A DNA stretch of 48,925 nucleotides from contig CAMAWF010000018.1 of the NCBI GenBank assembly GCA_945861895.1, forward strand, positions 1 through 48,925, read 5' to 3'. The stretch's first letter is position 1. Each line of letters begins with the position of its first letter. Positions 17,995 through 36,476 of the stretch are shown one piece after another. A program made the position numbers and the translations under genes. The notes under the pieces were generated by a model. The model saw only the letters and a list, made by a program, of their open reading frames with translations. It was not told the DNA's origin and searched no databases. This DNA comes from Rhizobium sp. Q54. Its GTDB lineage: Bacteria; Pseudomonadota; Alphaproteobacteria; Rhizobiales; Xanthobacteraceae.

Positions 17995-18004
17995 CTGCTA
18001 TCTG

Positions 18005-18089
18005 TCATGGCCGGGCCCCGTCCCGGCCATCTCGCTTAGGGGAGCACTGTGCCCGCCACGCGGGATCGCCGGGACAAGCCCGGCGATGA
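18005..18089. repeat. Paired-hairpin element C (85 bp), ORF-less relative of the GIY-YIG element
   Basis: The left hairpin (18005-18034) has stem TGGCCGGG/CCCGGCCA preceded by TCA. The right hairpin (18061-18089) is identical over all 29 bases to the right end of the GIY-YIG element at 36411-36439. The left ends also continue alike past the hairpin (TTAGGG). Only 26 bases lie between the hairpins. The element sits between the convergent marR and thioesterase genes, where it may also help end both transcripts. Confidence 0.88.
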
Positions 18090-18095
18090 CACCGA

Positions 18096-32756: not shown

Positions 32757-32769
32757 TCGCCCTCCTTTG

Positions 32770-32856
32770 TCATTGCCGGGCTTGACCCGGCAATCCATCA
32801 TAAGAAACAACAAATCTCGCGTTCGAGATGGACCCCCGGGTCAAGCCCGGGGGTGA
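32770..32856. repeat. Paired-hairpin element D (87 bp)
   Basis: The left hairpin (32770-32799) has stem TTGCCGGG/CCCGGCAA with loop CTTGA, preceded by TCA and followed by TCC. The right hairpin (32827-32856), in reverse complement, has stem CCCCCGGG/CCCGGGGG with the same loop and the same flanks. Compared with elements at 18005 and 36068, the outer three stem positions change on both arms together. It lies between the methyltransferase pair and the SDR gene. Confidence 0.88.
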
Positions 32857-32889
32857 CCGGTGTGAGATCGTCGCGTCTGGGGGAATAGA

Positions 32890-34885: not shown

Positions 34886-36058
34886 ATGAGCAAAGCGCGC
34901 TCTTCCGAACACGACGACCTCGCGCCGATCCGCGAGGCGGTGCGCGCGCTGTGCGCGGATTTTCCCGGCGAATACTGGCGTGCGCTCGATCGCGAGCGCG
35001 AATATCCGGCGGAATTCGTCGCCGCCTTGACCAAGGCGGGATTTCTCGCCGGACTCATTCCGGAACAATACGGCGGCAGCGGGCTTAACCTTCGCGCCGC
35101 CGCCGCGATCATGGAAGAAATCCACGCCGCCGGCTGCAACGGCGCCGCCTGTCATGCGCAGATGTATACGATGGGCACCATCCTGCGCCACGGCAGCGAC
35201 GCGCAGAAGAAAAAATATCTGCCCGCCATCGCCAAGGGCGAGTTGCGCTTGCAGGCGTTTGGCGTGACGGAACCGACATCCGGCACCGATACCTTGTCGC
35301 TTCGCACCACTGCCGCCCGCACGAACGACGGCTACGTCGTCAACGGGCAGAAAATCTGGACCTCGCGCGCCGAGCATTCCGACCTGCTGCTGCTGCTGGC
35401 GCGCACGACGCCGAAGGACGAGGTGAAAAAACGCACCGAGGGCTTGTCGGTGTTTCTGGTCGACATGCGCCAGGCTTTGGGCAAGGGGCTTACTATCCGT
35501 CCGATCCGCACCATGATGAATCACGCCACCACCGAAGTGTTCTTCGACGACATGCAGGTGCCGGCGGAAAACCTGATCGGCGAAGAGGGCCAGGGCTTTC
35601 GTTACATTCTTTCCGGCATGAATGCCGAGCGCATTTTGATCGCGGCGGAATGCATCGGCGACGCCAAATGGTTCATCGCCAAGGCGGGCGCTTATGCCAA
35701 GGAGCGCGTGCTGTTCGAGCGGCCGATCGGGCAAAACCAGGGCGTGCAGTTTCCGATTGCGCGCGCCTATGCGCAGATGCGCGCCGCCGAATTGATGGTG
35801 CAGGAGGCCGCGCGCAAATACGACGCCGGCGAGGATGCCGGCGCGGAAGCCAACCTGGCGAAGCTGCTGGCGGCCGACGCCTCCTGGTTTGCCGCCGACA
35901 TGTGCGTGCAGACCCACGGCGGCTTCGGCTTCGCCGAGGAATACGACATCGAGCGCAAGTTCCGCGAAACGCGGCTCTATCAGGTGGCGCCGATCTCGAC
36001 CAATTTGATCCTGTCTTATCTGGCCGAGCACGTGCTGGGATTGCCGAGATCGTATTAA
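34886..36058 (+). CDS. Acyl-CoA dehydrogenase
   Basis: A 390-residue FAD enzyme of the acyl-CoA dehydrogenase superfamily: VTEPTSGTDT and NGQKIWTSRA for flavin/substrate, RPIGQNQGVQFPIA in the C-terminal domain, and QTHGGFGF. The usual catalytic Glu of the YEGT motif is absent (LYQVAPIST instead), but E248 in MNAERILIA sits where isovaleryl- and long-chain acyl-CoA dehydrogenases place their base, so it is probably active. The ATG is close to the repeat. It is predicted to form the 2-enoyl-CoA used by the MaoC hydratase upstream. Confidence 0.92.
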   Translation: MSKARSSEHDDLAPIREAVRALCADFPGEYWRALDREREYPAEFVAALTKAGFLAGLIPEQYGGSGLNLRAAAAIMEEIHAAGCNGAACHAQMYTMGTILRHGSDAQKKKYLPAIAKGELRLQAFGVTEPTSGTDTLSLRTTAARTNDGYVVNGQKIWTSRAEHSDLLLLLARTTPKDEVKKRTEGLSVFLVDMRQALGKGLTIRPIRTMMNHATTEVFFDDMQVPAENLIGEEGQGFRYILSGMNAERILIAAECIGDAKWFIAKAGAYAKERVLFERPIGQNQGVQFPIARAYAQMRAAELMVQEAARKYDAGEDAGAEANLAKLLAADASWFAADMCVQTHGGFGFAEEYDIERKFRETRLYQVAPISTNLILSYLAEHVLGLPRSY

Positions 36059-36067
36059 ACTCAGTCG

Positions 36068-36439
36068 TCATGGCCGGGCTTGTCCCGGCCATCCCGTTTA
36101 GGGACGTACAGCCTTGCGTGAGTTCTACGTTTATATCCTGGGGAGCCGGCCCGGCGGAGCGATCTACGTCGGCGTCACCAATGATCTTGTGCGCCGAATC
36201 CGCGAGCACAAAAATCGCTTGGTGCCCGGGTTCACGAAGACATATAGAATCGATCAACTGGTTCACTTTGGAGTTTATTCATCGGCCTATCAGGCTATTC
36301 AACGAGAGAAAAACATCAAACATTGGCCGCGCGCGTGGAAGACCAGACTTATCGGACAAACAAACGCGGCGTGGCGTGATCTTTATGACGAGATTGCGTA
36401 GTCAATGAATCGGGATCGCCGGGACAAGCCCGGCGATGA
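36068..36439 (+). mobile_element. Candidate mobile element: two inverted hairpins flanking a GIY-YIG nuclease gene
   Basis: A 372-bp unit. The left hairpin (36068-36096) has stem TGGCCGGG/CCCGGCCA and loop CTTGT. The right (36411-36439), read in reverse complement, is the same 29 bases except for one compensating stem pair (G:C becomes C:G). Between them, from 17 bases after the left hairpin to 9 before the right, is a single GIY-YIG ORF. An ORF-less copy with the same ends is at 18005-18089. No target-site duplication is obvious by eye. Mobility is inferred, not shown. Confidence 0.65.
36114..36401 (+). CDS. GIY-YIG nuclease domain protein
   Basis: A 95-residue single-domain GIY-YIG protein of the small UPF0213-like class. 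Motif one is YVYIL, followed by IYVGVTN; the catalytic Arg lies in LVRRIREH and the Glu in AIQREKNIKHW. A TTG start is used (36114), as no other start is in frame upstream. Such proteins are thought to nick or cleave DNA. Small copies are abundant in rhizobial genomes. The tight fit between two hairpins suggests it acts on those structures, which has not been shown here. Confidence 0.85.
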   Translation: MREFYVYILGSRPGGAIYVGVTNDLVRRIREHKNRLVPGFTKTYRIDQLVHFGVYSSAYQAIQREKNIKHWPRAWKTRLIGQTNAAWRDLYDEIA

Positions 36440-36476
36440 TTGTGGAGTTGCTGGACGTGCCGAGATTTCAAATCCC

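Follow-up and report, generated by a model that had tools for sequence, protein, structure and literature searches.

A GIY-YIG nuclease gene between inverted CGTC-tagged hairpins: a probable REPtron-like mobile unit

The window, i.e. the whole analysed stretch of DNA (48,925 nt), spans all of contig C18 of its genome and contains a unit of approximately 375 bp in which, as read from its sequence, a lone GIY-YIG ORF is bracketed by inverted CGTC-tagged REP hairpins. This is probably a REPtron-like mobile unit in which the enzyme that recognises its cognate CGTC REP ends and mobilises them is a GIY-YIG nuclease instead of an HUH transposase. The mobility of the ORF and its ends as a unit is well supported; from sequence comparison, we infer that the nuclease catalyses the movement.

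The window unit and its counterparts in the genus

The relevant features of the window are the following.

36066..36096, + strand: left end, with CGTC tag (36066-36069), hairpin (36070-36092) and tail CCCG
36114..36401, + strand: GIY-YIG nuclease ORF, 95 aa, TTG start; PF01541, E=1e-13, above the cut-off
36411..36441, - strand: right end, inverted, with tail CGGG (36411-36414), hairpin (36415-36437) and degraded tag (36438-36441)
18004..18090, no strand: ORF-less inverted pair in the same window (L402), hairpin class of the window unit
32769..32857, no strand: ORF-less inverted pair in the same window, of a related hairpin class with the loop CTTGA and the tail CCATC

The left hairpin (36070-36092) reads ATGGCCGGG-CTTGT-CCCGGCCAT, with a stem of 9 bp and a loop of 5 nt, and the subterminal sequence of this end, CCCGTTTAGG, extends to 36102. 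The right hairpin (36415-36437), ATCGCCGGG-ACAAG-CCCGGCGAT, differs from the left one by a single compensating stem pair (G-C to C-G), and its outer tag is degraded to AATC in place of CGTC when read on its own strand. A 95-residue GIY-YIG ORF between inverted hairpins with one compensating pair had been described in the sequence-only reading; the sequence confirmed it, and it is not a product of chance. The neighbours, named from their translations, are an acyl-CoA dehydrogenase gene that ends at 36058 upstream and a CaiB-like gene that starts at about 36480 downstream. The hairpin also occurs at other places in the genome of the window, where 75 of 76 BLAST matches were to the two ends; the places are fewer than the matches, since either orientation of a palindrome can give a match. 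Hairpins of this type were not seen by eye at L010, a third small GIY-YIG gene of this genome.

The ORF was multicopy and patchy, with protein matches in 36 of 43 same-genus genomes and up to nine in each. From these genomes, 91 of 118 matches were read, the 27 weaker than E=6.5e-17 being left out, and removal of one duplicate (L078) gave a genus set of 90 distinct elements. For each, the two flanks of 200 nt on either side of the ORF were compared and their best inverted repeat was scored, with a threshold of at least 30. The results showed that 81/90 elements had matching inverted ends, bearing out the prediction that ORF-containing copies with matching ends would recur at different loci. 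Among the nine sub-threshold elements, L019 nonetheless carries both hairpins. The threshold was reached by 0/900 shuffled flanks, by 5/170 pseudo-elements from windows displaced by 700 bp, and by 17% of 1800 flanks mispaired between genomes, the last because genomes have hairpin classes in common. In a gene-level control, only 2/344 ordinary ORFs reached 30 (ORFs of at least 300 nt, not size-matched to the nuclease, drawn from the window and 400 kb of four relatives). Chance hairpins were thus ruled out by the shuffle, displaced and ordinary-ORF controls.

The gene-level control also speaks against a passive association, in which hairpins collect near small non-essential genes or in permissive intergenic gaps, and other enzymes, RAYT for example, do the moving. 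This explanation, which we regard as very improbable, is already disfavoured. A Y1/RAYT transposase (PF01797, E<=1e-5) was found in 1/43 genus genomes, as one match with E=2.7e-6, and the genome of the window had none; on this count we reject the idea that RAYT mobilises the hairpins of this genus, and the count likewise tells against passive association.

When the ends were sorted into clades by eye, one clade had the hairpin GTCATGGCCGGG with the tail CCCGCTTAGG, and a second had the same GTCATGGCCGGG hairpin with the tail CCACGTCTT. The other hairpins were GTCATTCCGGG with the tail CCAGGG or CCATA, GTCATGCCCGCGAAGGCGGGCAT with CCAGTAA, CGTGTCCCGG with CCCAG, and CGTCCCCGCGAAGGCGGGGAC with CCATAGCC or CCAGG. 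The loop and the start of the stem vary in clades other than that of the window. A loose CC tail pattern was present at 76/81 left and 76/81 right ends of the genus set. In one genome (G007), two tandem units of one clade (L065) were identical at 223/267 nt, and one of the ORFs was frameshifted. The distant members L098 and L102 adjoin another repeat, GTCATTGCGAGGAGC...GACGAAGCAATC, and L241 has a similar end.

Nuclease conservation, covariation with the ends and distribution

The GIY-YIG superfamily has conserved Tyr, Tyr, Arg, His, Glu and Asn residues, and Y7, Y18, R28, H32, E65 and N84 were invariant in two alignments, one of 26 and one of 29 sequences. The AlphaFold2 model of the window ORF had a mean pLDDT of 91.7. 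Its fold matches were led by UPF0213 (1zg2) and Slx1, with I-TevI and UvrC also listed, and the closest solved relatives by sequence were 1zg2 and 1ywl (UPF0213 / small GIY-YIG proteins). No NCBIfam family was found for the window protein, and the ORF had no transposase family match in NCBIfam or in the domain search, which gave PF01541 only. Compared with insertion sequences, the unit has inverted repeats as its ends, while its ORF matched no transposase family. Phage carriage was considered and rejected, as a search with L168, a relative of the window protein, matched no phage record.

The median dN/dS was 0.06 (51 non-independent pairs), and the nuclease ORF is under strong purifying selection. 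Such selection and the Slx1-like fold would suit a domesticated REP-processing enzyme, i.e. a structure-selective nuclease that the host retains to resolve REP cruciforms or process REP RNA/DNA and that is not a mobiliser, its gene perhaps being regulated by the flanking REPs. We consider this quite unlikely, in view of the patchy presence, with maxima of 9 to 11 matches in a genome, and of the clade-specific ends of each copy.

To examine the relation between nuclease and ends, left ends were compared with the right ends of other elements, a comparison that shared flanks cannot bias. In the identity scores, stop codons of interrupted ORFs, of which the genus set holds five, were set to X. Between genomes, the proportion of end pairs scoring at least 30 rose from 0.02 at 40-50% protein identity to 0.94 at 80% or more. 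The Mantel correlation was r=0.617 for 3868 between-genome pairs (0/999 permutations as high) and r=0.650 for 137 within-genome pairs (0/999 permutations); label permutation restricted to within genomes also gave 0/999 in the genus set. In the two wider samples introduced below, r was 0.286 for the class set and 0.414 for the named set, with 0/499 permutations each. From the sequence of the nuclease one can thus predict that of the ends, at different loci and in different genomes, which argues against passive association and agrees with the earlier expectation that the hairpins track the ORF. Linked descent of a single unit would also predict this covariation, which by itself does not prove recognition.

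Beyond the genus, a class-level sample contained relatives in 100/289 genomes and 80/224 genera, with up to 11 matches. One locus per genome was taken; 69 were read, and two with short flanks were dropped, leaving a class set of 67. Matching ends were present at 40/67 loci, compared with 1/670 shuffles, 1/126 displaced windows and 5.3% of 1005 mispaired flanks. In a named set comprising the best 80 of 317 loci, matching ends were present at 61/80, and shuffles gave 0/800; 274/960 mispaired flanks scored at least 30 because many of these loci have one hairpin class in common. By record title (that of L329 names no class), the ends matched at 44/52 alphaproteobacterial and 17/28 other loci of these best 80. 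Among these 17 others are Beta-, Gamma- and Deltaproteobacteria, Nitrospirae, Omnitrophota, Moranbacteria, Planctomycetota and a cyanobacterium; MAG binning errors could account for single cases. The unit pattern therefore appears to reach across Alphaproteobacteria and into other phyla, less completely than in the genus. A loose GTC pattern at the outer end, counted without a chance control, occurred at 60/81 left and 54/81 right ends in the genus set, at 23/40 left and 24/40 right ends in the class set and at 38/61 left and 42/61 right ends in the named set; the outer GTC tag is not universal among units.

In Neisseria gonorrhoeae (L404:1-2267), a GIY-YIG relative lies amid 11 dRS3-like repeats, with an inverted-repeat score of 106. 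On a plasmid of Planktothrix agardhii (L405), repeats of the TGTCATTCTGAG type enclose a relative, which is flanked by an MmeI-type restriction-modification gene and the DISARM gene drmA.

Occupied, empty and reduced sites

Each empty-site search gave 30 loci, which at the window position were the window and 29 relatives. In 15/29 relatives the site was empty, with 14 nt or less separating the two genes; the comparison of occupied and empty sites that the sequence-only reading had proposed thus came out in its favor, and a fixed host gene with incidental hairpins is countered by the same count. One relative (L117, G022) had an ORF-less pair. Both of its hairpins and the first bases of its tail are those of the window unit, but its interior bears no resemblance to the ORF. 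Other hairpin pairs were found in 7/29 relatives and a DUF559-type ORF in 2/29 (L130 in G029, confirmed; L108 in G036, decayed, by reading); 1/29 had a short spacer devoid of CGTC hairpins, and 3/29 were long, masked or ended at a contig edge. The protein search found a GIY-YIG match at this locus in none of the relatives. Since the locus gathers other hairpin pairs and DUF559-type genes, some gaps must be permissive, a point on the side of passive association.

A subset of DUF559 (PF04480) genes, which encode a Vsr-like nuclease, lies between inverted CTCTCCCC-type palindromes (L130, L108, L267, L274, L275, L277, L278 and L282). The score was at least 30 in 6/26 readable loci, four with short flanks having been dropped, and a further enzyme-hairpin system is possible.

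At a second locus, the unit was present in G041, G037, G020 and G024, broken in G011 and reduced to a single hairpin in G028; it was not seen in most other relatives, and G039 and G010 have the ORF next to the same downstream gene. Its presence in several relatives indicates that vertical inheritance occurs too, and the long stay at one locus is a point for a domesticated enzyme. The sequence-only reading had named, as evidence against mobility, an ORF that keeps one locus throughout the relatives; this was not what the window locus displayed, but the second locus does hold the unit in several relatives.

In named plasmids, Azospirillum lipoferum 4B carries the unit between sufB and sufC, and A. 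ramasamyi, A. oryzae and strain B510 have this junction without it, the flanks being 94.9-96.2% identical. At this A. lipoferum locus (L168), the ORF is flanked by two complete REP pairs and not by two single hairpins. A Sphingobium unit was present in TomMM7A, MM15 and TYG46, frameshifted in TYG73 and missing in TYG72 and TYG65. TYG64 (L175) and TYG74 (L177) have one symmetric chimeric palindrome, tagged on both sides and made from the outer hairpin halves, which is probably a deletion or excision scar, as expected from deletion between short repeats. In Rhizobium tumorigenes (L165), ends of this type were not found, and the strain comparison yielded no empty site.

The precise insertion junction was not readable at the empty sites compared, because the intergenic DNA has diverged even at the closest of them. 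Target-site duplication was not found in 110 pairs, for which GTCAT served to set the ends: 2 matches of 2-4 nt were observed, compared with 3.1 expected, and a match of 5 nt once, compared with 0.06 expected. The result fits single-strand or recombination-based insertion and not a staggered cut with duplication.

To describe the ORF-less pairs, we took 20 regions hand-picked as apparent pairs, the common orientation of which is therefore not an unbiased count; in 17/20, two hairpins faced one another as in the nuclease unit. After the left hairpin, 7/17 had exactly CCCGCTTAGG, as in nuclease units, 2/17 had the other tail (CCACG), and most of the remaining regions had a variant. L388 (G032), one of these regions, has both ends and the beginning of the ORF, with an internal deletion, and is identical to the complete unit L018 at 171/208 aligned bases. 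It is an intermediate form. Decayed copies that retain hairpins (L388 and Sphingobium TYG73) are not what a domesticated enzyme would predict.

These sites also bear on REP homing, in which the nuclease would cut ORF-less pairs or solo REPs. An ORF-bearing copy would then act as the repair template, with the hairpins and tails as homology arms, and the cut repeats would become ORF-bearing pairs; the ORF would be a homing gene that targets the repeat, and the REPs would be spread by something else. GIY-YIG is a classic homing-nuclease fold, and I-TevI is among the fold matches of the nuclease. Subterminal bases are common to ORF-bearing and ORF-less pairs, both kinds occur at one locus in different genomes (L103, L117), the non-ORF-like interior of L117 is as expected of a pre-insertion state, and the absence of target-site duplication in the 110 pairs would agree. 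Against it, many sites in relatives have no repeat at all, so that whole pairs do arrive; Y1/RAYT enzymes, as possible spreaders, were found in one genome of the 43; and the change in L388 runs in the direction of deletion. We therefore regard REP homing as unlikely.

Exact hairpin patterns were present in 34/43 and 39/43 genus genomes, and the control with backwards patterns gave 0. Hairpins per genome were then counted with two per unit subtracted, and the tests, which use hand-assigned clades and ignore shared ancestry, gave medians of 8 vs 2 for genomes with and without the cognate nuclease clade (p=0.0036; n=8 and 35) and of 17 vs 5.5 in a second cognate comparison (p=0.036; n=7 and 36), while comparison with the non-cognate clade gave p=0.15 and 0.23. 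Seven of the 43 genomes had no protein match. Six of these carry hairpins of one or both tail types, 14 of them in G026, and G018 is the only one with none.

Hairpins in genomes devoid of the nuclease are a point for passive association, and the sequence-only reading had listed them as evidence against its own proposal. Taken literally they are there, in six of the seven genomes; we do not consider them fatal, because non-autonomous copies can outlive the enzyme and some genomes are incomplete, and because cognate hairpins were more numerous where the cognate nuclease was present.

Relation to known systems, proposed mechanism and meaning

GIY-YIG nucleases are found in mobile units as homing endonucleases of the I-TevI type, to which the fold matches also point. 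I-TevI carries an extra DNA-binding module, whereas the window protein is a free-standing domain of 95 aa with hairpin ends of its own at many unrelated sites. A homing endonuclease gene takes up one conserved target site, often inside an intron or a conserved gene, whereas the unit is intergenic and lies at many unrelated sites; it differs from most insertion sequence families in that target-site duplication was not found. The closest proteins by fold are the UPF0213 / small GIY-YIG proteins, which are also closest by sequence, and Slx1. Slx1 is larger and was solved with Slx4, and two Slx1-Slx4 structure entries are titled as processing branched DNA. No report of UPF0213 / small GIY-YIG proteins with flanking palindromes was found in the literature searched.

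As in a REPtron (RAYT/TnpA-REP), a single-domain enzyme gene lies between inverted hairpins of its own class and, as with REPINs, ORF-less hairpin pairs occur elsewhere in the genome. RAYTs and REPINs are the subject of PMC2817692, PMC3116915 and PMC8266576. The likeness to REP/RAYT units with an unrelated enzyme, as first read from the sequence, therefore holds: the ends are inverted and of one class, and the enzyme is a PF01541 GIY-YIG protein and not the HUH/Y1 PF01797 enzyme of RAYT. The tag is CGTC here and GTAG in RAYT-linked REPs, and a genome can hold several dissimilar copies, each with its own ends.

The hairpins resemble the CGTC REPs surveyed by Di Nocera et al. (2013, PMC3733652), which have a CGTC or TGTC/CCTC tag, a stem of 8-9 bp starting from A-T, a loop of 4-5 nt and a CC(A) tail. 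Our left tag is CGTC and the right one degraded; the 9-bp stem ATGGCCGGG starts with AT, the loop is CTTGT and the tail is CCC. The hairpins are dispersed in many copies, often as pairs, like those of CGTC-3. CGTC REPs occur in five phyla and in all alphaproteobacterial orders, with a predominance in Alphaproteobacteria (PMC3733652). They "apparently lack a dedicated transposase", and early disappearance of the enzyme or stand-in transposases were proposed (PMC3733652). No flanked transposase gene was described in that survey, the main text of which does not contain "GIY", whereas here a GIY-YIG ORF lies between matching ends in 81/90 elements. The survey equated CGTC-1 with the neisserial dRS3 repeats. 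At the one N. gonorrhoeae locus examined, the dRS3-like repeats around the GIY-YIG relative are clustered.

Among the matches listed in a search of open-licence literature (no preprints), no paper linking GIY-YIG genes and REPs was found, and the earlier statement that GIY-YIG proteins had not been described in such a role stood within this scope. The part of one paper that was available (PMC10688885) reports two regulated Caulobacter GIY-YIG genes and does not mention palindromes there; the parts seen of PMC12306157 and PMC6006769 added nothing on the link.

In the REPtron-like mechanism that we propose, the nuclease would recognise the hairpin and tail extruded as a single strand or cruciform, e.g. 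on the lagging strand, and would nick next to the cognate hairpin. In cis, the nick would set off the copying of its own unit, or else its excision and re-insertion, and in trans the nuclease would do the same for ORF-less hairpin pairs; insertion would proceed without target-site duplication. The ORF-less pairs (CGTC REPs) would then be non-autonomous and would stand to the nuclease as REPINs do to RAYTs.

On balance, we lean towards the broader view that the GIY-YIG nuclease is the dedicated mobiliser of CGTC REPs, both throughout Alphaproteobacteria and in other phyla and perhaps also of repeats of the neisserial dRS3 type, and that the units form a class of autonomous elements of <400 bp, the enzyme of which is unrelated to DDE, HUH, serine and tyrosine transposases. 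CGTC REPs, for which the 2013 survey (PMC3733652) named no enzyme, now have a specific candidate in many intact, selected copies. If the proposal is true, a fold of repair, restriction and intron homing also powers a transposon-like system, there have been two or more origins of REP systems, based on unrelated enzymes, and few autonomous mobile elements are smaller than this unit. The proposal would also account for intergenic repeats of rhizobia, sphingomonads and azospirilla, and possibly of neisseriae.
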